From Cristatella mucedo (taxonomy: Eukaryota > Bryozoa > Phylactolaemata > Cristatellidae), in assembly GCA_009760855.2 (NCBI GenBank), contig WPIO01000034.1:2240001-2304000 (forward strand): a stretch of 64,000 nucleotides of DNA, given 5' to 3'. The translations under genes were made by a program, and so were the position numbers. Each line of letters starts with the position of its first letter. Position 1 is the first letter of the stretch. This document shows positions 4,301 to 63,669 of the stretch, one piece after another. The notes under the pieces were generated by a model. It was not told the DNA's origin. It did no database searches and worked only from the letters and a program-made list of their open reading frames with translations.

Positions 4301-4589
4301 CATTTCACGAGAGACTCACTGAGGAGCGTTCGTTCCCCAGAAAACAGGAAAACAGTAAACTGGTAGTTGCCGAGTAGCTTTGACCACAATGTGAGTTGGC
4401 GCTTTTGCATGGGTTCAGATACCTCCTGCCGACCACTGTCAAAAGTAAGCCGCTTAGGACAACTGAAAGATGCTGTTTTAAAAAGAGCGGTGAATCATCG
4501 ATAGTTAATTGAACTATCGGCAGATAGTTTTTGTTTTATAGAAGCAGACTGTCGTTTTTACTGAAGCAGACAGATTCAGCCTCCTTGTG

Positions 4590-13390: not shown

Positions 13391-14092
13391 ATGGCCAACG
13401 AGCGGAAGCTGTCCGCCGAGCAGCGGCGAATGGGCGGAGGCGCTGCTCCAGTGGCGCCGGCCAGACAGGGGCGCAGTGCCGAGAGTGTCGCCTCGCGAGT
13501 GGCGCGACCGTCCGACCGGCTGAACCCGAAGACGGTCGATCCGTTCGCCGACGGCGCCAAGGGCGGCGGCCACAAGTCGGCCTTCGCGTCCGTGTACGCC
13601 AAGGGCGGCGTGCCATGCCGCCTCGTGCACGGCTCGGTGAAGCACAAGCTGTCCTGGGACGCGCCGCCCGAGCAGCTGCCCTTCGACCCCGTGCTGGTGA
13701 CGCTGGCCGAAGGCGTGCGCGAGGAGGTGCACCCGTACACGTTTGTGGCTCGCACCGGCTTCCGCGAGCTGCTCGCCACGCCCGGTGCACGGGCCAAGGT
13801 TGTGCCGCTGCTCGGGAAGCTGGTGGGCCCTGTGCGGCTGGCACTGCTGCACGCCAGCAGCGGCGTGTTCGACGCCGGCCTCGACGCGCTGCAGCAGCTG
13901 AGCGCCAGCGCCGGCCCGGCGCTCAACCCGCACCTTAAGGGCCTGCTCGGCGCCCTCGTCAAGCGCTCGTCGGACAAGGCACACCGGGAGCGAGTGCTGG
14001 CCACTCTGCAGGCGCTGGAGCAGAACGGTGGTCGCGAGTGCCTGGTCGTCATCAAGTCCAAGGTGCCCACGTACAGCTCTGTGCTCACGTGA
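13391..14092 (+). CDS. PACRGL: PACRG-like protein, intronless and complete
   Basis: PACRGL is the paralogue of PACRG, a helical-repeat protein of ciliary doublet microtubules; the cellular role of PACRGL itself is poorly known. The 233-residue product has a disordered N terminus (residues 1-45), then the family hallmarks PSDRLNPKTVDPFADG, FASVYAKGGVPCRLVHGSVK, VTLAEGVREEVHPYTFV, GFRELL and LNPHLKGLLGALVKR. It ends with IKSKVPTYSSVLT, equivalent to the vertebrate C terminus. Length is close to the human protein (about 248). The start at 13391 lies in a near-ideal Kozak context (gccgccgcATGg); the frame stays open upstream to an ATG at 13259, which would add 44 low-complexity residues and seems less likely. 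The whole domain sits in one exon, whereas vertebrate PACRGL is multi-exon, suggesting retroposition or intron loss. The coding sequence is strongly GC-rich at third positions. Identification is confident. Confidence 0.95.
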   Translation: MANERKLSAEQRRMGGGAAPVAPARQGRSAESVASRVARPSDRLNPKTVDPFADGAKGGGHKSAFASVYAKGGVPCRLVHGSVKHKLSWDAPPEQLPFDPVLVTLAEGVREEVHPYTFVARTGFRELLATPGARAKVVPLLGKLVGPVRLALLHASSGVFDAGLDALQQLSASAGPALNPHLKGLLGALVKRSSDKAHRERVLATLQALEQNGGRECLVVIKSKVPTYSSVLT

Positions 14093-35873: not shown

Positions 35874-38800
35874 TCACGATCCCGAGACCGCGACATGTGG
35901 ATCTCGGTTCCTCATCCACAGAACAAACTCGTCTAGAAGAACTGGCCCTGTAAAGATGAAAAAATCGCGTAAGCGACGAGAGGCCTACTCAGCAGAACTT
36001 GAACAAGAAAGAATTCACGCAGGTCAAGGTGGCCGGCCACGGGCTAGGCATAGCTGAATTGTCAAACTTACATGCCCCGTCTTCGTCATAATTTGACAAG
36101 TCGTCTTTAATAGCTCGGCTAAACTCTAAAATGTTGTTCCATTGGTCTCGATTGACGGTGCGATACTTTGTGCACTGAAAAACGAGTGGATTTAGGTCGG
36201 CAAGCAGAGCAACAAACTGCTGTCGACACGATGCTAGATAGAGTCTGCCGGCTGTAACAGCACCCACCAGGGCATGCAGTAATGCAGTCAGTGCCTGCAG
36301 TGTGAGGCCGGGAGTTAAGCCATTGCAGGATACCTACTCTATCTAACCCTCACCCGACAACTACTTGGCCACACTGTTTATCGCATAGGCTCGTGCGATA
36401 TTGAGTTCAGACAGGCCATTTTGGCAATACAAGTTGCTGCCTCTACAGCGTGGCTGCAAGCACAGTACCATCCGAGTATGCCTTACTCAGCCCGTGCACA
36501 GTGTGTATACAAAGCAGAGCGTGTTAACAATGTCGGTCAGTGGATACCCAGTTGAACGCTGTGCACACGAATTGGGCCTAACAACACCTAGTGGCTGTCA
36601 CACTGGCAAGGCTTGACCGTTGAGGCTATTAGCTAGAAAAGACAAAAACCAAAGTTACCGCTTGTAAGGAGTCTAGACACGTTTGCCAGATTTGCCGTAT
36701 CTCGGGAGGAGAAAACGTTCCTGCAGTTCAGAGTGAGCCAGACTATCGTCGACGCCTAGCAATCGACATTGATGACTTACCAGCAGGAACTGGTTAAAGT
36801 GGGGACACATCGGCCACGTTCTTCCGAGGAGCAGCTGCAGCATGGCCTGTGCTAGGTCGATGTCGAGGTTTCGCATATCTTGCTGCTGAAAGGAATCGCA
36901 CGTAATTGAGATGCCGGCAAACGTCGAAATGCACTGCAATGTGCACTGAAGCACAGAGTACTTCCAGAAGAGCAAATCAAGTGGGAGACCAGTGGATTAA
37001 GCGGCGCAAGGCAGGTCGCACTGCATGACTCTGGTCGAGGGTTTAAGACCTGCAGTGCGCAATCCGGAAACCAGTTGAGGTAGTGACTAGCATGGAGGTA
37101 GCAGTTTAGGACGGCTGGAAAGGATATGCCACAGCCGGCAGCAGGAGAGTAGTTATCGTTGCGGAAGAATCGTGCAAACGAGTTCCACAGTCTACGACCT
37201 GCAGAGTAAAAGCTTCTGTTGCCAACGGTCTTTAAGTGGAGGAATGTAACGGCTAATTTATCGTCCATACAGGACCTGAGGGCACGAGGAGGCTTAAACT
37301 GGTGCAGCAGTTCAGCTAGGTATGGAGGAGCCAAGCCGTGGCAGACCTTGTGGGTCAGTGCAAGAACTTGGCTCTGCATCCATTGATCAACCGGTAGCCA
37401 TCCAAGCTCATGCACCAAATGAGACACATGGTCAAACCTATGAGATTGGTAAACTAGGCTTGCAGCCATATTCATCGTCAGCTGCAGTGACCTAGTGGCT
37501 TTTTTTCGGTAGCCCAGAAAAGGAATCACAATAATCTAAGCGAAACGGAACTAAGGAGCTAGCTAAATTCTTTGCAAGCCACTGTAGGAGACAGTTCCTA
37601 ATCTTAGATAGAGATCGGATGTGATGGCTAGCTGTGGAAGCGGTCTTTTTAACAAAGCTCTCAAAATTTCGGCAGTTGCCGAAGACGACACCTAAATTAC
37701 GAGCAGATGGCAATGGACGCATAGCAGCATCGCCCATTAGAAGAGCAAAGCTTTCTAGTTCAGCCGCAAGCTTGGGGTGGCATGCACGCACGCTGGTGCT
37801 GCTCCCTGCTACCCACGCGCAGTGCGTGTGCACGGCCTCGAGATGCATACTACGCCGCGAAGAAGCTTCCTGCCGCCCTGCCTTCCCGGGGTGGCCAGGT
37901 TGGGGGCAGACGGGCGAACTGCTAAAGCAGAGGTCGGCAAACTTTTCGGACTACTGGGCCATTTCATTTCAGGAGGTCAAGAAGGCACACACCAGGCCAG
38001 ACGAGACCACGCCCACTCCACAGGGCTGCCCGGAAGAAGTGTGGCCAGACGAACAAACAGTAGCAACAGAAGCACAAATACAAACGGGAATTATAGGGGT
38101 AGACATTTATCCTCCCTCCCCGGTCAGCCACTTCGGTTTCATACAAGTGCCTGATATCAGTTCTAACAATAAACACAGGCCAGAGACAACTTGAGCTGCA
38201 ACCAGCAGTAACGAATGGGAATAAAACCGTGACAACTAAATTAGGCCGGACCCAATAATAAGTAATAAGTAGGGGGCGTAAGGCCGAACTGGAGTACTAG
38301 CTAGGTCACATCTGGCCTAAAGGCTGCAGTTTGCCGACCTCTGTTAACGCTCCAGGTTCGGCCGCATATACTTGCCTTGGCAAAATCGAATGCATACTGA
38401 TAGATGCTCCTGAAAGAGTTAGCCTCCAACAAGTAGCTCCTCAGAAAGTCCAGCTTTTCCTTAAGCTTCCGCATGCTGTCGCATCTGGAATGGAGCTCGC
38501 AATCAGTGATAGTGGCTCCTGAAGCATCTGTAGCCTGCGGGGGGGGGGGGGGGGGGGGGGGGCAATGGCCTGTCACAGACGTCGGAGCTTCCAATGCTGG
38601 GAGGAGGGCAAGCGCGGTGAGGCAGAGGGGATGCGGCAGCTAAGGCGGACAGCAGAAAGAAGCGAGATCGAGTGTGAAATCGCACGTTCACTCCAATCGG
38701 ACTGAGAAACCGATAAACAGTAAGGGCCGATCCCTAACGCGAACCGGAGGAAAAAGTACGAGCGGCACAAAAGCTAGCTGTTCAAGCTGCTTCTTTTGCA

Positions 38801-41800
38801 ACTTTTCGTGGCAGAAGAGCCTTGGCAGCCCCATCAAGATGCTTGCAGCTGGCAAAAAGGGAACTGTCCGAAGCAGGACTAGAGCCCACGACCCCGGGTC
38901 GCCAAGAGAGTGCACCCGGGCTCGCGAGGTCGCCCAAAAAGTAGCCAATAAAAAAAAAAGAAAGAGCATCGGATCGGAAGCGATGCACAGGACTGATGCT
39001 CACGATTTGAGAGAGAGAGCGGGGCTTGCACACACACACACACACACATCGCCAGCGAAATGCAAAACATAGCTTGGCGACAGAATCAGCTAAGTCGCTG
39101 GCACGTTCGTCAACCGAGCATGTGCTTCGAGTCACCTGAATCGTGCAGCCGAACCTGCTCCGAACGCTGCCGATGGGCAGGCACCGGGCACGCGGCAGCA
39201 ACGTGGGGAAGGCACACACAGAAAAGCTGATTTAACATTTAGATAGCGGCAAGGAGCCTTCACGGCTATCGCCACTGCTTGCAGTGGTCACTGCGGGATC
39301 GCCCACTGCAGGACTCGAGCCCACGACCTGCTGGGTCGTGAAAAGCGAGCACCTTACCTCCTGGGTGAGGAGGGGGAGGAAGGCGGTGCCCATTAGCGGG
39401 GCCCACTCGAGCGGAGCTTTCGCAGGGGCCTTCGCATAGGGCCAAAATCGAAACGACAGGGCGCACGACGGATCGAGTGGGCTCGACCTGAAGTTTGCGC
39501 TCGAACCGTTTGCGCTCAAAACGCTACGTGGCCTGCTTGCCGAGCGCCCAAAGGGGAGCAAGGTTGAATCGAACAAAAGCTGTAGACAACTGCTTGTACT
39601 AAGAACTCGCTACACTCTCTTCTCGGTCAATTTCCAAAGGGAACGATTGAAATTTGACTCGTCTGCGGCTGTCTTGCTGCCCTTGCAAGTAAGCCCCCTT
39701 CCATATTCCATATTGCTTGCCATCCAATAAGGAGATTGCTATTTCAAGCTTTCGCTGCGTACTGGAACAAGCAGCATCCATCGACAGACATTGCACAACG
39801 ATTCGGTGCCGGCAGCCAAGAGGTCACTCAAGCAAGCTTGTTATTCACAAGCACGTTCTTCAGCAACGGTCTGGCAGCCTTGCCTATTTATGTCTTTCAT
39901 AGTCGGAGGACAATTTGCAATAACCGGTAGAGCACAGATGGGCAAAGCAAGGGCGATTTCTGCATTCACAAAACGTTTGATTCAGGTACTACATTTGGAA
40001 GGCTACAACAAGGTACACATTGCAAGAGCGCCCATGATTTCCAACAGTGGGCTACACTATTAAGAAGCAATTGCAGCTTAGTACGGCTGATCTAAGCTGA
40101 CAAACGATCGGGATGACAGGGCCTTGAAAAAAGCCTTGAAGAACAGATAAAGTGTCACAACACTTAAAATACAATAGGGCGTAAGCTGAGCAAGTCAAGC
40201 GTTTGTGGAGGCTACGCCAAAAAGTTATACTCACTAGAATTGCCTATATTAAACGCTTGCTTCCTAAGAGGTCAAATTAAGCTGCACGAAATGGGCTACG
40301 GACCACGCCCACTGTACTTTGGTTGACATGCAGAGCTGTCAAGACTGACGATGAATCGACGTTCGCCGTTTTCAACACTGACAGAAGAGCATATGTGAAG
40401 TAGAGTATTAGAGAGGTGTACAACGGGGACTGCCTTCAGAAGACGGTAAAGGTTGCTGGAAAAGGTGTGCCGATTTGGGGCAGCTGGGCAGCAGCTGGGC
40501 AGCAGCTGGTACCGGAATGCTAAATCGCACGTAAGGCATCACGAATCAGCAGACTACTTAAGACATCGTACATCGTCTCGCTTTTCCAAGAGCAGCGGCC
40601 CTTAAGAAGGAAATACATTTTATAAAATTTTTCTGGCCAACAGGATAACGCTCTTAAGCTCACTGCACTATCGCTGAGAGAGTTTTCCAATGATAGTTCC
40701 AATCACTGGTACTTCCACTGACTTCATTTTGCCAAGGTCAAACAAGCATCACCTCAACCCTAATGGGAAAACTTCGGGAAGCTTTTAAGTTTAAAATACA
40801 GTAAATAAAATAAATATATAATATACAACAAATATATAGTAAATACAGATTAAAATCATATAAAAATAAAAAGTGTATACTATCGTCAACTATTCATATC
40901 ACCTCAGGCGATGTCTTACTTGAAGGTCGATATCAATGTGACAAGACTCTGGAATAATGTACAAGGATCATGGCTTCCATGCCAACCCGTAAACAGGAAG
41001 CGATTGTAAATCATAATGGAACCATTCCCTATAAGCCTGAGTCATTTAGTAATTAAATACTTGGGCATAACTTGTTTATCTCTCACCGTGCCATATTCAC
41101 ACGCAAACTGATGCTCCAGAGATCATTGCAGGATGAATTACCAGAGAATTTCACACAATTCCGGTAAGTAAGGACAGCCGTCTAAACTATGATGGCATCT
41201 GCACACTTGGAGCGTAACCACCCAAAAACCATCAGTACTTACTAGTTGTTAAACTGCACGGGTTCTTTATGTGCACTTTGAGTGCACAGCAGCAGCAGCA
41301 AGGCCGTTGAATGCAGGGCGGACTAAGGACTAGTGGCAAAGCTGAAGAAGGAAATGCAGTGGGGGAGAAGGTGCAATGGAAGTTACTGATGGATGAGGGT
41401 GGGGCAGAAAAGGCAAAACCGGCAGCAGCAGGAAGAGGAAGTTGAGTGAGGATGTCGAGCACGAGTCAGAGTGCTTGTGCTCTCGAGTGCTCCTCTAGTG
41501 CATATGCAGCACCAGCAAACGCTCAGCAGCCAGCAATGCGCCGTGGCAGCACCAGCAGTCACGTGTCGATGCACGTGGCAGCATCAGCACCGTCTCACTA
41601 CAGCTACTCACTGCAGCTCAGCCATGCCGCTCAGCCATTCAGTGACGGTGAAGAATCCCATCTGCCTTGCCTGCAGCTTCCAGGCCAGTACGAGCATCAC
41701 GACGTTCTGTGGCTCGACGCCGAGATCTTCACAGAAGCTCTCCATGCCTTCGGGCTCGATGACCCTAAGACTGCTGCTACTGCTGCTGCCACCTACGCAA

Positions 41801-47800: not shown

Positions 47801-50644
47801 TCACGAAGCACAATCTGGGCTTTCATTTTTTAGCAGATGGCACATAGCTACACCTGTGCTTTAATCTATTCCTACCATCCAGCTCCTCAAACTCTCTCAA
47901 GTCTGTTGCTGCCTGTATTGCTGACATTTGCACTTGGATGGCAACAAACTTTCTAAAATTTAATGATGATCAAACCAATTTACTAGATATGGGCAAACCT
48001 AGTGCTACTCAAAAATTGGAAAACCCATCCCTCACAATTGGCTCGGCCAACATGTCTCAAGCAGTATCTGCACGATATCTGGATGTCCTGTTCCAAAATG
48101 AACTTTCACTAGACGATCACATCAGCTCCTCGGGTAAGTCTTCTGCCCACTTTCAGTTAACATGGCAAACATTTGGTCCTGGTTAGACAGGGACACTACA
48201 TCCCAGTTGGTCCATGCATTTGTGACATTTTGTAGTAACATATGTACCTCACAACTAGCAGGTCTTGTGCCTGTTGAATAAGGCACTGACAATTAGTAGA
48301 GAACTCTGCAGCTAGATGTATCTGTCTATAACAGCACAGTTGCCACATTAAACCACCACACCTCACAGACATGCACTGGGCCCCTATCAAACAGCATATC
48401 GACTTCAAGGTTTAGTCCTTCACTTTTAGGTCACTTCACTGTGTTGCTCTAGCCCTACCTATCCGAACTGCTTCTAAATCAGGCTAGGCATCGTACCACC
48501 CACTCTTAATGTAATGTAATGCATCTCTGTATGTAATGCCACAAGGCCACACAGACTATGTGGGTGTTACGAAAGAGAGTTTTGTATAGCCCACTCACAG
48601 CCTAAGCAGCTTTTAGCACGCATTCGGAAGCTAACAGACTTGCATCTCATGCAACAAAGAGAAAGTGAAAAGCATAGCTGAGTAAGGAGAGCAGTTGAGG
48701 TAGTGAGTAGCATGAAAGTAGCAGTTTAAGACGGCTAGAAAAAAAGTGCCATTGTGGGCAGCAGGAGAGTAGTTTTGACTCAAGTCGTTTAGCTGAGACC
48801 CAAATCAACCTACAATCTTTTACAGACCGTGCCTTTAGTTCGCATGCTGCCTGAAGCCACCACTCTTCAACCCATGTTTTCACTATTTAAAAATGGCTAA
48901 AACTCAACCTGCTCCTCATATAATTTGCTTTCAGTTGATCAGTGTGACTTGTCCTTTGTGTGCTTATACATCTGACTCTACATGCTATCACTAACCAATT
49001 GACACACTTCCTTCAAAGCATTTCCAAAATGCCGCAAAAAGATTCGTTCTGTTTGTCCTATCATTACTATTCCTGTGTGTCTTATCATTGTTATTTCATC
49101 ATAAACTAGGGACCAGTAGAACCAAACAGCTGAGGGCACAGAATTGTCAATAGATAGCCATGGGAATGCTTGGATCTGACTTAGTCATCATTTTAATCAA
49201 ACGATTGGCAGGCTGCATCTGGCTCTTACAATGGTCGATGCAAAAGTGCAGGATGCACAAGGTGCACCCTGCAGCAATGCACAATTACATCTGGATAATG
49301 CTACTGCATACTCATATAGAATCTTTGGTTGACCAACCAAAACAATCGCCATCGCCACCTGCTTTGTCAAAAGTGTGGTGCTGCGGAGCACATAGCCTTA
49401 GCACGCCGTATGAAGGCACAGCAAACAAGCAGCCCTAACACATTATCAGCAAAATTGCACCGGCGACAAATATTATAAGCGAACGTCACACAAAAACTGT
49501 CGCATGCATGGCGGTTTGTTACTCACTTGCATACTCGTTGAACCAGGCCTCACAGCGCTTCTGCGAGAACGGTGTAATGAACAGATCTTGTACACTGGGA
49601 ATGCTGTAAGGAGAGCAGCGCTGGCTGCATGCACGTCAAGCTGAGCCCGAGTCAAGCTTGCGCAGGCACGCACCCAACACCCACATAGCCTAGCTCGTGC
49701 ACCTGTACACCCAAGCATTCAGACCCACTCGTGCGCACGCAGATGCACTCACATCATCACACACGGCTGAAGATCATAGCAGCAGGCAATCCTTCATGTT
49801 CAACCGTTTAGCATAATGTAAACCTTGCCGGTAGCTCAGTCGATACAGCCTCTGTGCCAAGTGATCGGAGCAGCTAGCAGACCAGACAATCGTCCAAAGA
49901 GTGCTCAAGACAGAGAACATTAACTGCAGTTAATCTTGGGCTCTCTGACGCGATCATCTATCAGTGCCCATTTGTAAGAATAAAATTGAGCCAAACGGTA
50001 ACAGCTGTGCAAAGGAATTATAAATCGGTCAATAATCCGTTAAACGTAACGCCTTGCAGTCCACGTACACTGAAACTCGAGCACAGACAGCAATATTCAC
50101 TAAATTGTCGATGCATTGTACAGAAGAACGTCATTCACCCGGCCAGCAGATGCCTCTAGTTCTCAGCAGCACTCTTGTGAAAAATTTGGCTAGATAGTTT
50201 TCAAGTTTCAAACGCAAAGAGTGGCCTGAGATTCTGCCACTCCAAAATGGTACACTGGTGTATATGTGCCAAATATCGGCTCGCACAAAGTCGATACATC
50301 AAGACGAGTCCTCGCCATCTTCCCACCAATTCGTTCATGCAATGTTTTAATAACACTAATTCTTATCCCATAAATAAATGGTGTCAGGCAAGGCTTCTTT
50401 GCATTTCACTGCTTGAAGGACCTGTCTGGTCAGCAGTAGCACGTGATGGCTATAAGTCTTATTAGACGGCGACATACACTGGCATGAGCAAATGAAAATT
50501 TGGTGTCAACGATCTCAGTATGCCAAACGTCCGCATCAGGGTCGAATTCACAGCATACCTGCAGTCGTCCTGTTTACTCTTCTTCGTCTCCCGACCCCCG
50601 GCATCGGGAGTGACTGTCGAGCAGACACGCTTTTTGGGCGGCAT
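35874..50644 (-). CDS. DCUN1D5: DCN1-like protein 4/5 (DCUN1D4/5), 7 exons
   Basis: DCUN1D proteins bind cullins and NEDD8-charged E2 and act as co-E3s for cullin neddylation. Exons in transcript order: 50644-50559, 49603-49527, 41792-41612, 38484-38376, 36885-36781, 36174-36072, 35947-35874 (TGA); 244 residues versus about 237 in human DCUN1D5. Exon 1 gives the basic leader [10 protein letters not shown]. Exon 2 has [11 protein letters not shown]. Exon 3 has [20 protein letters not shown] and [12 protein letters not shown]. Exon 4 has LDFLRS and [10 protein letters not shown]. Exon 5 has [19 protein letters not shown]. Exon 6 has [10 protein letters not shown] and LSNYDEDGA. Exon 7 has [10 protein letters not shown], so the PONY domain and cullin-binding DAD region are present. 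Oddities: a Ser run at the exon 3 start, a GC donor after exon 4, and a divergent C-terminal tail after VLW. Animals outside vertebrates usually have one DCUN1D4/5 gene, so the symbol is approximate. Confidence 0.94.
36990..37850 (-). mobile_element. non-LTR RT C-terminal half with SINE fragment at its 3-prime end
   Basis: Minus-strand frames 37848-37492 and 37529-36852 encode [34 protein letters not shown], then [20 protein letters not shown] and [14 protein letters not shown] frameshift separates them. A small SINE-like piece (gtttaagacctgcagtgcgc) lies at about 37030-37065. The whole sits in DCUN1D intron 4, between exon 5 (36885) and exon 4 (38376). Confidence 0.8.
38539..38562. repeat. 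24-base homopolymer G run
   Basis: Uninterrupted G on the plus strand, so C on the DCUN1D sense strand, 54 bases upstream of the exon 4 acceptor. Confidence 0.97.
38830..38950 (-). mobile_element. tRNA-derived SINE, degraded
   Basis: Reverse-complement B-box region ggactagagcccacgacccc followed by gccaagagagtgcacccggg. DCUN1D intron 3. Confidence 0.6.
39240..39375 (-). mobile_element. tRNA-derived SINE, main family
   Basis: gccactgcttgcagtggtca, cactgcaggactcgagccca and gcgagcaccttacctcctgg in reverse orientation. DCUN1D intron 3. Confidence 0.75.
39720..40490 (+). pseudogene. second Tc1/mariner transposase relic
   Basis: From the ATG at 39938 the frame encodes the N-terminal helix-turn-helix ([20 protein letters not shown], then ISNSGLHY). 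[12 protein letters not shown] segment, [11 protein letters not shown], and after frameshifts [18 protein letters not shown] and [19 protein letters not shown] follow. The first catalytic Asp block (DDEST) is kept, unlike the copy at 27 kb. The C-terminal third is missing and stops are frequent. DCUN1D intron 3. Confidence 0.75.
40792..40880. repeat. AT-rich low-complexity stretch
   Basis: Irregular aaata and tata units; no coding potential. Confidence 0.8.
41989..42498 (-). pseudogene. unidentified ORF broken by one stop, PIP-box-like motif
   Basis: From an ATG at 42498 the minus strand is open for 46 codons ([20 protein letters not shown]...), meets one TAA, and continues in the same frame for over 110 codons. 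That part includes an acidic stretch ([12 protein letters not shown]), a basic Lys/Ala segment ([11 protein letters not shown]) and QPPILSYF, which fits the PCNA-interacting pattern Q-x-x-[ILM]-x-x-[FY]-[FY]. A 33-nt segment around the stop is flanked by GT and AG, but such an intron would be very short. It is nested in DCUN1D intron 2 on the same strand. It may be a processed pseudogene, a transposon ORF or a small gene; I do not recognise it. Confidence 0.4.
43683..43755. repeat. (GTGA)n-(GA)n microsatellite
   Basis: gagtgagtgagtgagtgagt grading into gcga units and then (GA)n with gata interruptions. It occupies the same position in the retrotransposon as the (GA)n at 32136-32205. Confidence 0.95.
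44588..44740 (+). mobile_element. tRNA-derived SINE, main family, well preserved
   Basis: Head tagcccacgaggtaaggcgc fits the A box, perfect B box GGTTCGAATCC, body ttcaagtggtggcaatagcc and tail tgctatacaaatgaagctgt. It is inserted antisense in a retrotransposon relic. Confidence 0.92.
46100..49105 (+). mobile_element. degraded non-LTR retrotransposon copies with SINE insert
   Basis: A 3-prime end with tail attattataattt at 46535-46607 is followed by an RT copy: [17 protein letters not shown] near 47100, [10 protein letters not shown] region near 47380, [10 protein letters not shown] at 47950, and AQHVSQAVSAR-like sequence near 48050. The UTR shared with 2.9 kb lies at 48510-48780, and further 3-prime sequence runs to 49105. 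Plus strand, antisense to DCUN1D intron 2. Confidence 0.75.
47405..47568 (+). mobile_element. tRNA-derived SINE inserted in RT
   Basis: Head tggcacactgggtaaggcag, B box GGTTCGAATTC, body cgctgccagcagtggtaata and tail aagaggctgctaaatca. RT coding (tttgatactgttgat) resumes after it as gatcacaaagttcttcttga, so the insertion split a Val-Asp-His codon run with a very short target duplication. Confidence 0.88.
49826..49862 (+). other. isolated tRNA-head-like sequence
   Basis: cttgccggtagctcagtcga resembles a tRNA 5-prime end with A box, but no B box or acceptor-stem complement follows. Probably a SINE head remnant. Confidence 0.3.
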
Positions 50645-51116
50645 CTAAACCGTTACCTGTGAACGAGGAGATCAAGGGCAATAAACTATCGTTAAATAGA
50701 TCTTATGACGGCTGAAGGATGGTGGATCAGACGCTACGGCACCTCATGTCTGACATCGAAGCACAGACGACGGTGAAACTTACGGACGACTATCGAGCAG
50801 TCCAGAGGCAATGCCTCAAACTCCGATGAAGCAAACAGCGCTGGATACCAAAATCTCGCTCCAAGATTTACTGCATTTCAAAGGAATAGCAAGACAAAAA
50901 GGCAGCTTTGTGACACCAGACTTGTGAGCTGCAGACAAGCACAATCCACGGCAACCCAACCCAACGACGCTTCCAGACCCACAGGAAGCAGAATTATCTA
51001 TGACCCCTGGCCCCGCTCTCACTGTAGGCTAAGGACGATTGGTCAGCTCGTTGGCGAATGGTGCCCACTGGTGGAGTGACATTCCATTCGGATGGAGGCT
51101 CATGGCGTACGCCGGC

Positions 51117-51128
51117 TTGGCTAGCAAC
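51117..51128 (+). promoter_or_regulatory. RFX X-box-like site
   Basis: ttggctagcaac fits the RFX consensus GTNRCY/RGYAAC with no spacer and a mismatch at the first base. RFX factors drive many ciliary genes, and DYNC2H1 starts 1.2 kb downstream. A 12-base near match can easily be chance. Confidence 0.25.
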
Positions 51129-51697
51129 GGCCACGAGTGAGGTAGGCCGCTGCGATCGCTGACTTCTAAGCATACATTATATTATAGCATTGAACTCGAG
51201 AACCAAAATCCCAGGCGCACATTTTAATCCCGCAGTCCGATGAAGACTAGAGGACTTGAAAACGGCCTTCGAAAACACTGGGCAGCGTCCTGATGGGAAG
51301 CGTTTGCCGCCGAAAACGCCTCAATTAATCTTACCTCGAAGATCCGCCTGTCGTCAACGAATGGCGTTAGCCGCTTAACATCTCATTTTGAATGCTGAAT
51401 GATATATAGGCATAGTCATTTGTGGTAAGATTCCGCCCACCGAGTATTCAATGTTGTGGAGGGTCGTCTGCCGGTTTATATATATAAGCTACAGAGAGAG
51501 TCGAGTAATAAAAAACTTGCCTTACTCACAAGACCAGAGGCACAGAAGCCTCAAAAATTTTTAATTTCAATAAGAACACGTGACGTTATTTGGTCGTACA
51601 GACAGGCAGGAGTATCGATTTGATATGACTGAAAATGGAATCCTGTGTAGCGATCAGCCTGCTGCTGCCCTAGTCGTTAGCAGCCAGTAGAGGCCTA

Positions 51698-51701
<4 letters not shown>

Positions 51702-51777
<76 letters not shown>
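51702..51777. repeat. (TC)n microsatellite
   Basis: About 38 uninterrupted TC units in the DCUN1D-DYNC2H1 intergenic region. Confidence 0.97.
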
Positions 51778-51779
<2 letters not shown>

Positions 51780-52305
51780 CTCTGCCATAGGTAGCTGGCT
51801 TTGCACTTGCTGTCCGAGTGAGTCTGACAGGAAAACTGCTCTGTTGAACCTTTCTCGGGTTAACGGTTGCACTCACCGGCATCAGCTGTTCGCCAGCTGC
51901 CAAGCCTTGTGCCTGCCTACTGCTCGTGGTCTGTGTTGCTCTGCAGGGGAGGGGATTACTAGCCAAGGCGACCTGGCTGGCCTGACTTCGGTCGAAAGGC
52001 CCTCACCAAGGGTTGTTGCTTGGTGCTTTACTGGATATTCCTCTGTGAAGCACGAGATCTCCACTGAGGCATGTTTACCATGCTGTGCTTGTACTTGGAT
52101 ATGAACTGTCTATCTATCAAACCAAATCTATCTACCAAACCAACAGGGTGTCAGCTCCCACTACCCCTTCGAGTGAAGTTTATTTTATCAGTCCCAATTC
52201 ACGTTCAATCATCTTAAGAGCGTTTATTTATAAGAAGACGTTGACGCACTGCCAGCACGACGCGTGATGTTTCTGGCTTACTGCAGCAGTAATTATTTTA
52301 TTAGG

Positions 52306-55300
52306 ATGCCTGGGGCTGACTCGAGAAAAGATTTTCTCGTAACGACAATCGCGAATCACTTCGGACTATCGACGTCAGAGGAATCTGTCAGCTCACTATT
52401 CAACCACGAAGCCCTCAACTCGTTCCTTGACGATGGAAACGTCGCCGTTTTGGTAGCTAAGGCAGGCGATGGAGGTCGAAGAGCGATATTGCTTAGCTCT
52501 AAGGTACACTTTAATGACCTGCAGGTCTACAAATTTCGTGCGTGCAATATTCCTTGCGGTCAAAGTTTCCTCAAGTGATATGCTGCTGTTGCTGCTGTTT
52601 GTGTCCCTTAAACTTAACTCTTCATCATGCCAATTCCGGCGATACTACATACCCCTTAAATACCAGATTGGTTTGTGGTCCGGTTTGGGATAGATCCTCA
52701 GTGGAAAATTGTTCATTACCTTACAAGGGAACACAAAATGTCAGAAGCTGTCAAATTTTGGTCGATATTGGTAAGCTTATGTGAATCTCTTGCCTCTGGT
52801 TTTCTGAGGTCGGGATTCAAGTCTTGACTATGACATGCCATATCTATTTATTATGTGTAGCTCGTAATAAAACTTCTGGCTGACGGTCCAGCTAGGTAGT
52901 TGGCTATTTTGTAATCTTACAAAACTAAGGTGCATAGTAGTAAACAGCATGGTTTTGCAAGGTGACTTGTAATGCAGGAATTTCTACTCCATCAGTATTT
53001 AGCATCGCATACTAGCTTTACAGATATAAAGTTAACATCAAGTCGTTCATGCACGAACATGTTAGCTGCCTCAGGCACCTTCCACCTTTGAAGCACATTA
53101 ATGCATTCTTAAGGTGGGGTTTGGGTCCATTGGCAAACGAGTAGCACGCATCATTGTAAATCCCAAGACGGAAATAATTGTGACAATGCAGACGTGTTAT
53201 GCGCTCTCACACAGGTATGCTCACATGCACCGCCACTTCGAAGCTTGCACTCAGTCGTATGTGTATGCGTTCATTCATTTACCGACATGCACTATCGCTA
53301 TGCCGAGGGACTGTGATAGCAAAGGAAATAGCACCGGTCAGCTGGAGCTGCACACAATGGGAGCCGTTCTACAGCAACGGGGGGGGGGGGGGAGGGTGCT
53401 ACAATTAGCAACCAGCCATTACCAAGCACTCTTTCCTCGAAACCAGCCATTACCGAGCAGCTGACTGGCAACTGCATTACTGAGAGACAGCTTACCGAGT
53501 GAGCACTTGCCGGAGCATAAAATCCTCCGACGCTCTTGCTGCTCTAATCTCTTTTGGGCCTGCCTTGCAGTGCTTGCTCTGTCTGAGGGATAAGCTCGGC
53601 GGCACTGGACTAGCAATGGAAAAGTGCAAGTACCCGAAAGCACGACGACCCAAGTGCGTAGTAGCAACCTTGACCCCGAATGCCCGAAAGTAGGCTTCCG
53701 ATTGGGGGATTAGCAAGTGTTTCCACCTCTCTAATCCTTGGCCACCTTATCCCATCTGAAATGAGCTAGAGTGTAGCTAGCAAGGAGTGGCAGGTGATAG
53801 CAGGTAAAGTGCCGCAGTAGCAAAAGGGCCGTCTGAGGGCGCTAGGTGCTTGCTTGTTACTTCATCGGTTTGCTTGCATTAACTGTAGGAATCTTTCCCT
53901 CTGCCCTCTGCTTTTTGCAGGCTCCTATAACTCTGCTGGTCGTAGGAGCTCTTTTGCATAAGTATGAGCAGAACAAATCTCTTTTCCCCAATAATATAAT
54001 GCCCTATGTTTTATGGCATCTGCTTTGTTCCCCCAGCGCTAATGTTCTGCATTCGTGGAAATGCTTGGATGTCAGTGGCTGTTGAATAGTTTTCTTCACG
54101 GCTGTCAACCTTATAGTTTCCGTTAGCTTGTATCTCTAATAATAATTATTATTATAATAATAATAATAATTATAATAACACACTTGATATAGCACCCTCA
54201 GAGAACCCAATCTCTTTCTAGGCACTTTGCATTTGCTACAAAGGAAGCACGATCGAATGGTTAGTGGAAGCATGCTCAATAAGCAACATGAATAGCATGG
54301 TTAGGAGTGACATGCACAGGGTCAGCATGCAAGTATGATTAGTGGCAGCATGCAGTGTCAGCATGCACAAGCACATAAAGGACGAATCGAAGGGACCCAC
54401 TAAATGCTGCTGATCAATAGATGAGTTTTAGCTCGGAAATGCAAACCGGTGACCTTGGAATAGGGGGTTGCATTTTGATGCCCCTCATTTCTATTGGGCA
54501 CCGAGTGCTAGCCATAAGATCAATAAGAAAAGACTTCCGATGGTGATAGCAAATCCCTGTGTTGTGCTACCGACTTTTCTGTGATGTCGTCGTTTCTGAC
54601 ACTTTGCCATTACACATTGGCTAGGTTATCACGGCCCTAGAGAGTATTAGGGATTCCTGAATTACAGCCTATCGGAATTGACTATTTCATAAACTATATA
54701 TTCAAAATGTTTAACCGGATGTTTGAAGTCGTAGTTAGCTGTATTTTGTGCTTCTAATCAGTGTTCTTTGGGCTTCGAACTGTTTCATACCCTCTACGCA
54801 ATACCTTGTGCTGTACACATTGTGCAGCCTGTGCAGCCTGTCGAAAAGGCTGCTCTGCGCTTTGGCATTGCGTACGTACATATTACCCACTGCACAGACG
54901 CATAGATTACATATCAACTTACGGTTACAAGCCTCTAGCAGCAACCATAGCAGCTTGCTACTGGAACTCAGTACCCAATTGACTTCACGACATCACCTGA
55001 CTCGTCAAAATTATTTTTAAAGGAGTTCAAAACGTACCTGTTACTCAAGTCATTTCTTTGGTCCTTTCTATAGCTAGCTGACACCATGTATGTTACCGCT
55101 CGTCATAATATAGCTGTTGACACAATGATGCTTTAACCGACGGTATAGTCATGCGTTTTACCTAGATTTATCGTGCGTAACGAGGGATTGTTTTCTCAGT
55201 TTCAAGGACACGGACTTGTTATATTGAGCGAGGGCACGACCCTTTAGTGCTTCCCTACCCCCCTCCGGCATACCTGCATGTGTCGAGGCAGCAGCTGTTA

Positions 55301-58300
55301 CTCGCTAGCCGTGCTTTGAGGCACCAGCTTCATAGGTATTTGCCGTGCATTTGCAAGAACTATTAAAGTCACTAGTGCTGTCTTTGTGGCAAAAAGCTTA
55401 AGGCAAGCAGCTACATTCTAGCACATTCGTTTCACTTCCCGATTCGGGCATTGTGGAAATGAATTATTTCAAGCAGCTTTTTAATGCCGGTGAGAAAATC
55501 TGCCACCCTGTGCACTAGGTATATACTTTTCGAAAGTTGTGTACATGGTCAAGGTCATGCTCGTATGCTGCTGAGCAGTTCCAACTGTTCTTGAAAGTTA
55601 CAGGTCCTGTACTGTGGCCCAGCCATATTTAGAGTACACTCGAGGTCATATATTAATCAGGCATGAGTCCAGGCATTTGACAGGTCATTGCAGAGCCGAG
55701 CATTAACTTGACAACAGGCTATTTAGCTGTCTGCCACGATGACATGGAAAACTTGCTCACCTATCGTCTTGGGGTGGAGTATTTGCCTTGAGGATGGGAC
55801 TCGTGAGTCGGTGGAAATAGTTGGCAGCCTGAACAGAATAATAATAGTTATAATAATTATAATAACACACTTGGTAAAGCGCCCTCAGAGAACTCAATCT
55901 CTTTCTGGATACTTTACATTTGCTGCAAAGGAAACACGATCGAACATGCTCTCAGAAGCATAGCTCTGCCTTTATTTTCAAGCGACAACAAATATTAGAA
56001 GCGTAGCACTTTTCATTTGTCTGGCAAGTTTGCTGAGCAGGGCCATGTGTGATCGAAAACGTTGCTATGGGGCACGTCCTGCATTTACTGTGACCAGAGG
56101 TCATGGTCATATTTGTCTTAAGTCCATGTGTATTATTTGTTGCACCTGTCTATAGCTTGGGATATACAATTGTGTGCAGCCCCTGTGGCCGCAGACTCGA
56201 TAGACGGGCAAGCGTTTTTGGATTGACTCGCCTTATGTAGTAGCCACTTAGTGGCTTTGCCTTAGTCGAGTTGTAGGCCCTGCTGCATTACTTCTCTATT
56301 ACTATTTTCTGGCAGGCTGACCGAGAATGTGATTCATTACCTGCTGGTCGAAACTACCTGCTGGTCGAAAGCTGCCGCTCAGTTGTTGCTTACACTTGAT
56401 CGATCGTGCTTTCTGGACATTGATGAGAATTTAATTTCCCTTTTCCCACTGCATGTATGTGCATACGTGCATGTGTGTGTGTGTGTGCATGTTTGTTTGT
56501 GTGTGTGTGTGTGTGTGCGTGTGCGCGTGTGTGCGTGCGTGAGTTCGTGTGTATGCATGCGTGTGTGCATGTACGTGCGTGGGTGGGTGCGTGCGTGCCA
56601 AGCTTTCTAGTTGCTGCTTCGTGTAGCTGACCTGCAACGGTTACAAGGTACAGATAATTACAGCGCCACCATTGCTATTCATGAGCTGCACGATTCCGGT
56701 GTCAGGCTGCTCTGATGCTTTGCTCTTACCGATGATATATTATGCCAAGCTAAATGTAGTCTCGATATAGTCTGCACTTTCGAAGTATATAATTTTGATG
56801 CACCACCAGAACACTATAAATTAAGATTGATTTATGCACCAAGCTTACCCCTCTCAAAAAGTGCATCTCACCGAGCATCCCGTGCATGTATCAAGTATAT
56901 ATATATAAGTATGGGTCCACTGTAGCGTTTGTCTGTTCGAGGTCTTACAAAGACACGACTTTAAGGCAACTGTTTCGTTGTCGAGGTAGGTGGTGGTTTG
57001 CTACTGCCACCGTAACCCATAGCACTCAGATAACTAGCCATCTGGTATCTTGACAGCAGTGCAGCCATTGGTGAGTAAGTAACCAAGCATGTCGCCAAGT
57101 TTCCCCCTCTCTAAAAATGCATCGCCTTGGGCATTTCGTTGGTAATTATCAAAGGATTGCTACTATGCAGAAGCAAGCTAGACATGGTTCGAAGTGTTTT
57201 AAGAAGTCAACGGAGCAGTAAAAAGAAAGAAGGAATCTCTCCCAACAGACCTTTCAGATGAACAGGAACTTTTCAGATGTACAGTGACTTCCAGCTTTAT
57301 TTCAAACCTCTTCCCTGATAGTAGCTTGCTTGGTGTGCCAAATGTGTGTACTCAGGTCATCTTCCTTATCATGACTTAATGGACACCTTTTAAAACACGT
57401 ATGTCACCTGGTTTTGGCATCAACAGTGTTTGCTAAGACTTCTAAAGCAGCCGCATCTGGTTCTTCAGTAATTTGTCATCAGGAAATGCACTTGTGTGGC
57501 CACGCTCAAATTGCACTACCAATTTCTTGCGTACTCTCGAACCATGTCTGGTCCTTGTCTGCACGTGCAAAAACCGAATGTCGAGATACATGTTTTGAGA
57601 GGGCAACAATGGGCACTTCCAATGAACCTGAACCCCTAGGCATATTCTGATAGTGGTATCAAGCTATCCCTGGAAAATTGCAACTGCTTCCTAACTTGCT
57701 TGAAAACCTGTCGCAAGCTCATTTCACGAGTCCTTTAAAACCAGTAGGTTAATCAAGGCTGAAGCTAGCATAATTTGTATAAAAATATTGCTTCCACATA
57801 GGCATTTAAAAAGAACTTAGAAACACCTATGTAGGACAGCATTTAGTGGGTCCCTGTGCTTCGTCCTTCATGTGCTCATGTGTGCTGACACTGTGCATGC
57901 TGCCACTAACCACAGTTGTACATTTAAAAAGAACTTAAAAACACACTTATTTAGGACAGCATTTAGTGGGCCCCTGTGATTCGTCCTTGATGTGCTTATG
58001 TGTGCTGACACTGTGCATACTGCCACTAACCACATTTGCGTGCTGACCCTGTGCATGTCACCCCTAACTACATTGTTCATGTTGTTTATCAAGCATGATA
58101 TTACTCACGATTCAATCGCATTTTCCTTTGCAGCAAATGTAAAGCGCCTAGGAAGAGATTGAGTTCACTGAGGGTGCTTTATCAAGTGCATTATTATTAT
58201 TATTATTATTATTACTGACTTAATGCTTCCTGTGGGGTGTTCCGGCCTCGATTTTGTAAACTTGGCCGCATTTGAAGTTGTCTGTCCATGTCCGGGCTGC

Positions 58301-61300
58301 ATGCATTGGCGGTCCAGCACCTGTACACACATGCAGGTGCATGCATATGCATGTATTTATCGATGCATGCAATGCACACCTGCATCTTTCTCTAAGCTCA
58401 ACGGCAACATCGATGCTCTTGTCGCGTCGCTCTAGGTTGATGCTGGCGATGGCAACGACCAGGTGATAGTCTTCTTCAAGGTGAAGCCCGCCGTCATAAC
58501 GCCCGACAATCTTCACCGCGATGTCTTCGTCTCGACGATGCTCGACTCGCCAGTCAGCGCCCTGTATCACTCGGTGCAGAAGGTGTTCGCGCCGCTGCTG
58601 CTGAAGAACGACAAATGGAGCGTCGATCCCAAGCTGCAGTCGCTCCTCGGCGAGCTGGAAGCCGGCCTCGGCACGGTGCTCAGAAGGCAGGCCGACAAGG
58701 CTGCAGGCAGCGGCCGGGCGACCGCCTCGGGCGCTAAGGAAGGCGAGCTCAGCTTTGCCGGTACGATCAGAGCAGCGTGGGCTGGAGCCTCTCGGTCGGT
58801 GCGCCTGGCGCCCCCTCCCCGTCGGAGCGCGCCGGGTCGGTGCGCCTGGCGCCTTTGCTCTCGCTGCCTCGCCCTCGATGTCAGCTTCGTCGCCTGCCTG
58901 CCGTTTTGCTAGGAATCCTCACACCGCAAGACGAGTTCCAGTACTGGGCCGAGGTCTCACTCTCCGGAGGCAAGCTGGACATCAAGGAGCGAGCGCAGCA
59001 CTTCGATGAGCTCTTACAGCCGATGGCGCGCGACTTCAGCACGCTGGACAGCTCGCCGGAGATTGCCGACGTGCAGGACCTGGTGGACATCTGTCAGGAC
59101 ACGCTCGACGACCTGTGGAAGCAGACCGATGTCAGTCCTCCGTACCCTGAAAACCGGATGAGGCATCTGCTAGAAGTGATCGGTGGGTACCGCCGGGTCG
59201 TGCACGACCCGGCGTTACTGTGGCGTTTCTCTCGGTCCTTTTCCGTTTGGTCGCTTGCCGTTCGTCAATGTTTCGGCTGCAAATCGCTCTGCTGCCTGAC
59301 GGCGCGAAGTGACGTACGTCGGCGTGCGTTTGCGACCGTTGGCCTGCGTGACAATATAGCTTGCAGCTGCCGTCAGCCGCTCCCTGCTACACATTACCCT
59401 GGTGCAGTGGCATGTTCCTTGGCGACGGAAAGTGTTTGCAGTGCGATCGTGCAGGATGCGCATTTTCCATTTGCCCCTTTCTTACTCTCTTCTGTACGAA
59501 ACCTGTTTTTATCGCTGTGTGCCTGAGATATGTCTGGCATCGATGCTCGGCTTTGACACTGAGGATTGGTGTACAGGTTTTAAGGCTTCAGCACACAAGG
59601 CCTTCTTTTCGAGCCTAATTTGGTCACTGCTGTCGCTGGGCAGTACACTTTAGGTTTTGGCGGACCCTGTATGTCGCTTCAGCCTAGACATCTGACTGCT
59701 TCGGAACACGCCCACGAGGGTGCACAGGATTAGATCTGTCGTTGCCGGATATACCTCGCGATGTAGTTAGGATCGAGACTTTTTTCTTTGCACAGTTACT
59801 AGTGTGTTATGACCACGGTGTAGTAGCCACAGATATATCTTTCGCACGAAGCAAAGCGCACCGTACGTAGTGCTAGAGCTCACAGACGCCTGACTGAATA
59901 CTGCACTTCAGACCCAGGTCGCGAGCCCGAGACCGGCAGCAGGCAATCCTACATTGCCCACTGCAAGCGGAAGCGACAGCCGCTAAGGCTCTTTTGCAGT
60001 TATAGGAACGAGGTTGATGAATCGACTTGTCTTATTACTTTTTTAACTTAAGTGGTTGCTCTAGCGCCTTGAAGCGCTGCGAGCAAATCTCAAGTGGAGG
60101 AGAAGGGAGAAGGGTTACTCCAATGCAGGCGCGCCCACGAGCGTGGTGCACGACGGCAGTCATACTTGCCCACATCGCAGCAGCAAGTCCTGTGCTCTCC
60201 GACTCCATGCGGCTCAGGGCCAGAGGCCAGAGGGCAACCAGAGGTCAGTCCAGGGCAGATGCACAAAGGAGACTCGTCGAGTATTGACACGGTGATGCCG
60301 TGGCTATCGTCGATGATGATGATGATGATAAGGCTGCCCACGAAGTTTGTAATCCTCATAATTCAGGAACAGCTATCATCGCTAGATGCAATGATCGCGC
60401 TCATATTGGCGCCGGCCTGGCAATTCGACAGGCCTATCCCGCTAGCTCGTTTGTGCTCGCACTTGCCTAAAGCCATCTAGGCGGACCAACGCTTCATCAC
60501 AGGACTGGTCGCAGCCCTTTCGGGCTAGTCTCGTGCTAGGCTCTTATGTTGGCCAGGTCGACTTTCGTCGGCCTGCTCGCAGTGATTTGCTGGGTTATTC
60601 CTATAATTCCAACGTATCCTTGCATATTAGGAAGTTGACTCAAGCCCGCCCCATCACCACCACCACCGGCAAATGAATACACAAGAGAAAGCTCACCGTT
60701 AGTGAGCTCAGAGAGAGCTCAAACCAGTTTGAAAAGCTCGAGTCGACGCTATCCCAATCAAAGAAGACAACTAGTAATCGAGATCCAATTCCCACTATCC
60801 TGCTTAACCGATGCATGGATCTGCTGCCGCCATGCATATCTAATACCATAAATATGTCATTAGGCTCAGGTCATGTCCCAGCACTTTTCAAAATGGCTGT
60901 AGTCAGGCCACTATTCAAGAAATCAACAATAGACCAAGAGAACTCGGTGCATGCTGCCACTAACCACATTTGCATGCTGACCCTGTGCATGTCACCCCTA
61001 ACCATTTAATTCATTTGTTTGTTTTTCAAGCATGATTTTACTTACTATTCAATTGCACATCACTTTGCAGCAAATGTAAAGCACCTAGAAAGAGATTAAG
61101 TTCTCTGAGGGCGCTTTATCAAGTGCATTATTATTATTATTATTATTATTATTAGAACTGGAGCGAATTCCGCCCAGTTTCTTTTCTACCGTTTCTCTCA
61201 AAGACACAGGAACAAGTCGACGCTCTGATTCTCTGATTTAAATCAGAGAATCAGAGCATCGACTCGAGGTTGACGCCAGATTCTCTGATTAGTGGTCATG

Positions 61301-63669
61301 ATTAGTGGTCTTGGTAGTGCCGCTGCCTCGGCTGCTACAGCTACTCTGGCAAAAAGTAGTGGCAGCTGAAAATGAAAAAAAAATAAAAAAAAACATCCGC
61401 TGACGTGCATCGCGCAACTTGCCTCCCGCAGGTGGTGCCCTCGGCCGACACATTCAGAAGCGGCTTAGCAAGGAGGACGTCATGCTCGGACCATTCTCGC
61501 GCGTCAAGGAGCAGCTGCGGCTGGCGTTGAGCGTCTGCGAGCGCTGGGCGGCGGCGTGCGATACGCTCACCAGGCAGTTCTGGAAACGCTATGAGCTGCA
61601 CCCATGGACCGGACCTCCGTTCGCTCCCGACGACCTGCAGCGGCTCGCTACTCGACTCGAAGAGGTTCGGGCACTGTCGTCGGCCGCCATTGCGCGAGTG
61701 CAGGCTGGCTCATTCCGCTCAGCCTCGAGGGGCACGCTCGCATGCAGGCAGAGCAAGCCGTGCTCGCCGTATGCGCACCGAATGTGGCACCAGCAGCGCT
61801 TTCAGCAGCGCTCTCGCGGCATGTGCAGCCCAGGCCTGCTTGCACGCCCAGGTTGCTGAAGTTTTGAATGCAGCTATCAGCTGTCTCAACTGCCTCGTGT
61901 ATGTGCGAGACAGAAGAGCGCTAGTGGCTGTCGCCGGCTCGTGTGTGTGCCTGCACGAGGGGGACGATGATTCATACCCACGACCTAGGTATTGGAGAGT
62001 GCGAGCACCCTATTTATTGCTGAGCCAAGACTAAGCCCTCTTACCGCTAGGTCTTTGCCCATGTGGTAAGAGTGACATCCGTCCTTCATTTTGCTATGCT
62101 GCCTCTGCTTTCAGTTACTAGTTGTCTGTTACAGCTGTCTCACTCGTTCTTTCTCAGCCGACAGTTTTCCTCAACCGAAGCCCGGGGTGCAAACCGCAAG
62201 TGCTCGACATGCCTCTACATTCAATCGATTTTGACCTTTCCTTCTGCACTCGCCGGAACTTCCACTGTAGGCCTGCCTGGCAGGTGCTGTGCCACAGCGA
62301 GGCAGTTTTTCCTTTTCCCCTCTTCCCGCCATGAGTGAGATAATAACAAATAATAATAATGCACTTGATGAAGCGCCCTCAGAGAACTCAATCTCTTTCT
62401 AGGCGCTTTACATTTACTGCAAAGGGAGATGCGGCCAGGCCTGTGTAAAAGTTCCTTGCGCTCCCACAAACCGTTACTCTCCAACGTTATTTTGGTGCTC
62501 CAACTGTGCCATCGCATGCCAAGGACAGGGCAGCTTTGGTGACGGCCACATCTTCTTGCCGGTCGGGCGTGTTGGCATTTTTGCATTTCGCGATCTTTTG
62601 AAATGCATTTCTGCTTTTGCCACTTTCTCACTTCCTCGTGTTGCATTTAGCTTGTTCGCAATGTGTAGATTGTTTCCACCGCCGCCTCGTAGGACGACAT
62701 CGCCCGGTAGCGATGACCTACTTGCTTGCTTGGTTTTGCAAAGCTCGCTCATCGGTGCGCTCAATTCCTTTGCTTCCCGGTTCACCCACACAGATTCTCA
62801 CCGTGCGTCTTGTGCACGAGCAGCTCATCAACCTGCTGCCTTCGTCTGAGCAGCAAGAGCTGCGCAGCGGCGGCAGCGGTGGCGATGCCCTGGCCCCTTT
62901 TGCTGGCCTCAATCCGCTGCAGTACAACCCGTACACGCAGCCTCTGTGGCGGGCCGCCATAGCTCAGCACGAGAAAGCGCTTGCACCAGCTGAGCAGAAA
63001 GTGGCAGGCCGATTACGCCGTCAGCTGGCTGCCGTCGGCTCCAACTCGCAGCAGGTTAGTTCCGATTGGCGTGCACTTCCGATCGGCACTTCCGCCAGCT
63101 GAGCTGTTTGCCTCGCATTCGGCCGTGCTTATCTTGCAAAGATGCAAGGCCACGATCGCAGCTTTGCTCCTTTCGACAGCTGCTTCGCGAGTTCCAGCGG
63201 TACCAGCAGCTCATAAAGCGACCGTCCATCTCGCGAGAGCTACTGACCGAGAGGTGAGGTGCCAGCTGCCTCGCTTGCATGCGTGAGTGGAGAGAATAGG
63301 GTGGTTGGTGTAGCAGCAGCAGCAGTAGCGATTGCAGCAACAAGAGCCTCAGCAGCTGTAGTAAAAGAAGCAGTAGCAGCTACGCCAATAGCTGCAGAAC
63401 CGGCAGCAGCATTTTCAGCAGCAGTAGGAGCACTTTTAGTATGCAATAGTCTGCGAATGGCAATCCCCAGGTCTGATGCTGATGTCTCATTGCTGCCATC
63501 GTGCTGCTTCAGGGAGACACTGCTCGGTCAGCTAACAGTGTTCGTCAAGCAACTGGAGACCGACTTTGATCAGCGCAGTGGCGGGGTTGGTGACAAGCAG
63601 CCACCCAAGGGCCAAAACCTGCCGGAAGTCGTCAATGGCATCGTGTGGGCTCGTCAGCTAGATGCCAAG
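52306..63669 (+). CDS. DYNC2H1: cytoplasmic dynein 2 heavy chain, N-terminal exons 1-7 (partial)
   Basis: DYNC2H1 is the motor for retrograde intraflagellar transport. Exons: 52306-52503, 58436-58760, 58913-59182, 61432-61664, 62794-63054, 63180-63253, 63513-63669, giving about 506 residues of the N-terminal tail; the motor domain lies beyond the right edge. Landmarks: RKDFLVTTIANHFGL and LNSFLDDGN in exon 1; QVIVFFKVKPAVITPDNLH, SPVSALYHSVQKVFAPLLLK and ELEAGLGTVLRR in exon 2; ILTPQDEFQYW and PENRMRHLLEVIGG in exon 3; LGRHIQKRL and WKRYELHPW in exon 4; GLNPLQYNPYTQPLWRAAIA in exon 5; LIKRPSISREL in exon 6; LPEVVNGIVWARQLDAK in exon 7. The start aligns with the human start and has A at -3. 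The phases (0, 1, 1, 0, 0, 2, 0) all agree and lengths match human almost residue for residue except a longer linker in exon 2. The exon 4 donor (GAG|GTTCGG) is weak. Intron 1 is 5.9 kb. Confidence 0.95.
52504..54129. other. DYNC2H1 intron 1, 5-prime part
   Basis: No known repeat family recognised except a 14-base G run near 53379. No additional exon is needed, because exon 1 and exon 2 join at exactly the human spacing. Confidence 0.5.
54130..54430 (-). mobile_element. non-LTR retrotransposon 3-prime end
   Basis: (AAT)n-type tail at 54139-54180, then gcaccctcagagaacccaat, tctctttctaggcactttgc and the UTR blocks identical in order to 32474-32750. DYNC2H1 intron 1. Confidence 0.85.
54760..55075 (+). 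mobile_element. RT C-terminal fragment of a related element
   Basis: Frames around 54900-55060 give AATIAACYWNSVPN followed by a helical segment resembling the APRLWNSLP-x-LR-x-FK end of CR1-like ORF2. Weak but collinear. Confidence 0.45.
55835..55960 (-). mobile_element. non-LTR retrotransposon 3-prime tip
   Basis: taataattataataacacac, gcgccctcagagaactcaat and tctctttctggatactttac; truncated after about 120 bases. DYNC2H1 intron 1. Confidence 0.85.
56465..56600. repeat. degenerate (TG)n microsatellite
   Basis: tg, tgca, tttg and cgtg units over about 135 bases. DYNC2H1 intron 1. Confidence 0.92.
56601..57779. other. DYNC2H1 intron 1, no feature seen
   Basis: No repeat or exon recognised; a plus-strand frame at 57414-57650 lacks motifs and splice sites. 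Confidence 0.4.
57780..58215 (+). mobile_element. non-LTR retrotransposon 3-prime end with internal duplication
   Basis: The UTR block starting catttaaaaagaactta occurs at 57803 and again at 57921 (period 118), followed by gcgcctaggaagagattgag and an (ATT)n tail ending 220 bases before DYNC2H1 exon 2. Confidence 0.88.
59905..60035 (+). mobile_element. tRNA-derived SINE, degraded
   Basis: caggtcgcgagcccgagacc (B-box region), body ttgcccactgcaagcggaag and tail gaacgaggttgatgaatcga. DYNC2H1 intron 3. Confidence 0.7.
60945..61153 (+). mobile_element. nested 5-prime truncated retrotransposon tail
   Basis: cggtgcatgctgccactaac through aaagcacctagaaagagatt to (ATT)n, bounded on both sides by agaact (60939-60944 and 61154-61159). 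Confidence 0.85.
61222..61257. repeat. 36-bp perfect palindrome
   Basis: Arm gctctgattctctgattt followed directly by its exact reverse complement, no spacer. It lies at the 3-prime edge of the RT fragment in DYNC2H1 intron 3. Confidence 0.97.
62338..62430 (-). mobile_element. non-LTR retrotransposon 3-prime tip
   Basis: taacaaataataataatgca, gcgccctcagagaactcaat and ctctttctaggcgctttaca. DYNC2H1 intron 4. Confidence 0.85.

Follow-up and report, generated by a model that had tools for sequence, protein, structure and literature searches.

The window analysed here, a stretch of 64,000 nucleotides of the bryozoan Cristatella mucedo genome (contig WPIO01000034.1, positions 2,240,001 to 2,304,000), contains two divergent genes, DCUN1D4/5 on the minus strand and DYNC2H1 on the plus strand, whose start codons are 1661 bp apart (Table 1). 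The preliminary description had named both genes, their head-to-head orientation and a spacing of 1.66 kb, and all of these were borne out by an in-frame gene model, by matches in PDB and by the positions of the two ATGs (50644 and 52306).

Table 1. Features at and around the DCUN1D4/5-DYNC2H1 locus (positions in the window unless another segment is named)
Feature	Position	Strand	Basis or remark
DCUN1D4/5 coding region	35874-50644	-	7 coding exons; ATG at 50644 and stop codon ending at 35874; start as in the preliminary description
DCUN1D4/5 coding exons 1-4	50559-50644, 49523-49594, 41612-41770, 38376-38484	-	joined model, tblastn
DCUN1D4/5 coding exons 5-7	36781-36885, 36072-36174, 35874-35947	-	joined model, tblastn
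Stretch between start codons	50645-52305		1661 bp; includes a (TC)38 microsatellite at 51702-51777
DYNC2H1 first coding exon	52306-52503	+	tblastn with human sequence; first ATG at 52306
DYNC2H1 exon	58436-58687 (3' limit approximate)	+	tblastn; PDB match
DYNC2H1 exon	58912-59182 (5' limit approximate)	+	tblastn
DYNC2H1 exon	61432-61676 (3' limit approximate)	+	tblastn
DYNC2H1 exon	62794-63054	+	tblastn
DYNC2H1 exon	63174-63254 (limits approximate)	+	tblastn
DYNC2H1 last exon in window	63514-63669	+	donor AAG/GTG read from the sequence; end as in the preliminary description
PACRGL-like gene	13385-14071	+	Pfam ParcG, 2.9e-43
APTX-like gene	L026:5-727	+	Pfam DcpS_C, 2.8e-25; HIT, 1.4e-11
POLR1E-like exon	L017:5847-6029	-	Pfam A49 family, 1.3e-5, slightly under the curated cut-off
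Weak IQ motif	L027		Pfam, below cut-off

The exons of DCUN1D4/5 were located by tblastn with human sequences, and the seven coding exons joined in frame to give an uninterrupted protein of 235 aa. The modelled junctions use AG acceptors and GT donors, the one exception being a GC donor at 38376, which makes one intron of the model GC-AG; the junctions between exons 1 and 2 and between exons 2 and 3 were picked to keep the frame and to approach the human length, and here the model is least certain. Compared with PDB, the protein matched DCN1-like protein 4 best (5v89, 275 bits), followed at a distance by the other paralogues (DCNL1, 152 bits; DCNL2, 150 bits; DCNL3, 102 bits), and it was 55% and 58% identical to the human DCUN1D4 and DCUN1D5 sequences, respectively. 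The cullin-binding domain is thus nearer to DCNL4/5 than to DCNL1-3, which at the level of sequence points to membership of DCUN1D4/5. The introns of the gene are rich in repeats common to the neighbourhood, which account for 42% of the gene and 67% of intron 2.

DYNC2H1 extends beyond the end of the window, and the seven exons found by tblastn within it stand in the same order as in human DYNC2H1. The comparison with PDB covered five exons, of which one lies inside the window and the other four in the downstream flank; human DYNC2H1 was the best match of each, and the matches were colinear on the 6rla chain (residues 281-357 for the exon in the window, 3e-25; residues 1508-1626, 2826-2901, 4191-4258 and 4401-4466 for the flank exons). 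The exon matching residues 1508-1626 scored 188 bits against DYNC2H1 compared to 59 bits against the next dynein, and the exon matching residues 2826-2901 scored 94 bits compared to 52 bits, while the remaining three matched DYNC2H1 entries only (E up to 0.001). The last of the tested exons corresponds to the human C-terminus, which gives the gene a span of approximately 73 kb (about C277:2292306-2365000, on the contig of the window). Over the five exons tested, from the N- to the C-terminus, the heavy chain appears nearest to cytoplasmic dynein 2, as expected of a DYNC2H1 member.

The stretch between the start codons has a GC content of 0.488 and a CpG observed/expected ratio of 0.79, compared to 0.77 for the window. 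Apart from the (TC)38 microsatellite, no other sequence in it was matched within 264 kb (low-complexity filter on), and an Rfam search of the window returned 0 matches. An in-frame upstream ATG for DYNC2H1 was read from the list of open reading frames at about 52267, and a splice-acceptor-like AG directly precedes both ATGs (50645-50660 and 52290-52305), so the 1.66 kb is a distance from ATG to ATG, not between transcription starts. The 5' leaders of both genes may be spliced or trans-spliced, through leader introns or the addition of a spliced leader. Nothing seen in the assembled sequence pointed to a bad join, and the window contains 0 N. Just upstream of the window, C277:2230001-2240000 contains 5000 N, which may represent an assembly gap.

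For the flanking genes, a small codon model trained on DCUN1D4/5 and DYNC2H1 delimited 123 coding-like segments, 10 of which were submitted to Pfam. The matches included, beyond those in Table 1, a ring-hydroxylase domain, leucine-rich repeats and a DUF7285 match (below cut-off), and three of the 10 segments were without match. The names PACRGL, APTX and POLR1E are our reading of the Pfam families together with human sequences. The PACRGL-like gene occupies for the most part a single open frame, some 22 kb past the 3' end of DCUN1D4/5; its family, PACRG, has ties to cilia. The POLR1E-like and APTX-like exons flank the region, and both human genes presumably lie on 9p, a hint of an older shared linkage group.

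The family search covered the 572-Mb genome (688 contigs), and its copy counts are lower bounds. At least three Cullin_binding matches were obtained among six scored candidates, one of them on the contig of the window; the other two, classified by visual comparison with human sequences, in part those of the PDB entries, were one DCUN1D3-like and one DCUN1D1/2-like. One member each of DCUN1D4/5, DCUN1D3-like and DCUN1D1/2-like would be the set expected before the vertebrate duplications and would suit an invertebrate, and it is the single unduplicated DCUN1D4/5 found, at this lower-bound count, that adjoins DYNC2H1. When an alignment of three DCUN proteins was used to scan other collections, no pattern match was confirmed as a relative of DCUN1D4/5 (0/135 in genome_contigs, 0/49 in viral_contigs), as expected because these collections are non-animal.

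We take human DCUN1D5 (minus) and DYNC2H1 (plus) to be adjacent and divergent at 11q22.3, that is, the same genes in the same orientation as in Cristatella mucedo. The two arrangements differ in the gap, which we assume to be about 17 kb in human compared to 1661 bp here, and in the outer neighbours, presumably MMP genes and PDGFD in human compared to the PACRGL-like and POLR1E-like genes, the nearest recognised ones, in Cristatella mucedo. Among the recognised genes, conservation is therefore confined to the pair. An extended 11q22 block was likewise rejected, since none of the recognised genes is known from 11q22, with the reservation that 10 of the 123 segments went to Pfam and genes may be missed. 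The human DCUN1D4 gene presumably stands without DYNC2H1 alongside.

Published work places the two vertebrate genes near each other. On chicken chromosome 1, according to the consulted part of PMC6449956, DYNC2H1 and PDGFD are the genes nearest to the associated region, with DCUN1D5 in an adjacent linkage block; in human tumours, DCUN1D5 and DYNC2H1 both fall within one amplified 11q22-24 region (PMC4527746, in part). Both gene names also occur, without position, in one association-signal table in an excerpt of another paper. As far as these excerpts go, they support closeness of the two genes in chicken and human, without orientation. Among the literature matches listed (titles and abstract starts), no paper concerned the DCUN1D4/5-DYNC2H1 pair as such, and neither gene was named in the main-text parts on conserved pairs consulted from PMC3815023, PMC2871058 and PMC8851819.

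Provided that the assumed human map is right, chance adjacency is very unlikely and common ancestry is the best reading. We estimate that a named pair would be adjacent with a probability of about 2/20000, with a quarter of such cases in a given orientation, giving about 2.5 in 100,000. We therefore consider it likely, leaning on that map, that the head-to-head order was inherited from the common ancestor of Cristatella mucedo and vertebrates. The preliminary description had proposed a microsynteny conserved since an early animal ancestor; its gene identities, orientation and distance are right, and inheritance is the most likely explanation, but the human half of the comparison is assumed, and the literature excerpts supply closeness only.

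The preliminary description had further suggested that the pair links a neddylation cofactor with the IFT-dynein motor and is possibly kept by shared regulatory DNA. Among the matches listed in a partial view of the literature on IFT, cilia and neddylation, nothing was seen that connects DCUN1D4/5 with IFT. In the consulted sections of a primary cilium study in prostate cancer (PMC13232477), DCUN1D5 is listed among spindle and microtubule genes; a sperm-tail paper (PMC11245616, in part) cites a title according to which sperm individualisation in the mouse needs the paralogue DCUN1D1; and an excerpt of PMC8511677 names DCUN1D5 apart from cilia. The spindle lists and the sperm role are hints at most of a connection to cilia, and the proposed functional link was left unsupported by the literature seen in these parts.

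We next weighed a shared bidirectional promoter or enhancer that would hold the pair together by co-regulating the cullin-neddylation cofactor and the IFT dynein motor. The divergent order with 1661 bp between ATGs would suit it, as would the occurrence of DCUN1D5 in the gene lists of the cilium study. The gap also lies within a 5115-bp run (49022-54136) free of repeats that recur in the 264 kb, whereas such repeats, counted only where shared within the 264 kb and with the low-complexity filter on, make up 22% of the 264 kb and the proportion of the DCUN1D4/5 gene given above. However, among 5114 windows sampled at the size of the gap, 1310 were equally repeat-free, and four longer runs exist in the 264 kb; the repeat-free gap was accordingly rejected as a signal of constraint. 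Scanning 18 consensus motif sets in the gap likewise gave none that survived correction. The lowest uncorrected P values were those of a TATA-like run, present on both strands close to the gap midpoint (51475-51488, P = 0.013), and of FOX-like sites (P = 0.043), bearing in mind that consensus scans can miss elements. The FOX-like count of 3 represents two sites, one of them caught by two patterns, and the E-box count comes from a single palindrome that reads the same on either strand; shuffles were counted likewise in both cases. A scan for bacterial-type promoters gave 5 compared to 1.5 in shuffles, which is meaningless for an animal gene.

Shared ciliary control through RFX found no support either, since the X-box was not above chance in the gap or in the window: the loose X-box occurred 0 times in the gap compared to 2.5 expected, and the X-box with up to 2 mismatches occurred 8 times in the window compared to 7.15 expected, and 0 times in the gap. 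A human gap of the assumed length also speaks against a shared promoter. In addition, one survey found short divergent gaps to be without special conservation in animals (PMC2871058, in the part consulted). On these grounds (no X-box above chance, no motif after correction, a gap whose freedom from repeats is unremarkable), maintenance by shared regulatory DNA is unsupported, and we regard a shared promoter or enhancer as unlikely. A deeply conserved regulatory unit of animals, older than the bilaterian radiation, in which one shared control region couples retrograde intraflagellar transport with the capacity for cullin neddylation, would be more improbable still.

An independent, chance origin of the linkage in the Cristatella mucedo lineage and in vertebrates draws on the comparison of two lineages only and on recognised flanking genes that are not common to both; with the chance of the pair in the given orientation estimated at the order of 1 in 10,000 or less, we consider it highly improbable. 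An assembly artefact fusing two unlinked regions is hardly credible, since, even with the microsatellite in the gap, the window is free of N, the contig reaches 4.17 Mb and a false join would need to arrive by accident at the pair assumed for human.

With inheritance as the preferred reading, two unrelated genes would have retained their ancestral head-to-head order. Their persistence would be passive, with no need of co-regulation, perhaps mildly helped by the short gap, in which most breakpoints would damage a promoter or a 5' leader, and so one or other of two needed genes. If the assumed map holds, it is DCUN1D5 that would have remained next to DYNC2H1 in vertebrates, whereas the second copy, DCUN1D4, would have lost that place.

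Such a pair would resemble known classes of conserved neighbours. In the parts of PMC2871058 consulted, divergent and co-directional conserved pairs are much commoner than convergent ones, and pair conservation in animals is highest for gaps near 10 kb. A catalogue of ancestral microsyntenic pairs exists (Irimia et al. 2012, as cited in the excerpts of PMC5429095 and PMC3815023), with 60 unambiguous ones in a sponge (PMC5429095, in part); the pair described here would be like them in that, as far as these excerpts describe the class, unrelated neighbours keep the same order and orientation across distant animals. One explanation of ancestral pairs given in the same part of PMC5429095 joins a developmental regulator to a bystander gene. 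Unlike in such pairs, neither DCUN1D4/5 nor DYNC2H1 is known to be a developmental regulator. Bidirectional-promoter pairs of the HSPD1/HSPE1 type (PMC2871058, in part) share the divergent orientation, which is probably conserved here too, but have transcription starts less than 1 kb apart, whereas here 1661 bp separate the ATGs and a shared promoter is only putative.

The arrangement is thus probably a new case of microsynteny conserved among metazoans, and one of an ordinary kind. If confirmed in several phyla, it would add a clean, functionally unexplained pair to the ancient gene neighbours of animals. Confirmation would also show that DCUN1D5 is the vertebrate duplicate keeping the ancestral place. 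Because the gap would differ about tenfold between the two lineages, given the human length assumed above, the pair would then offer a simple test of whether such pairs persist through shared control or through inertia.
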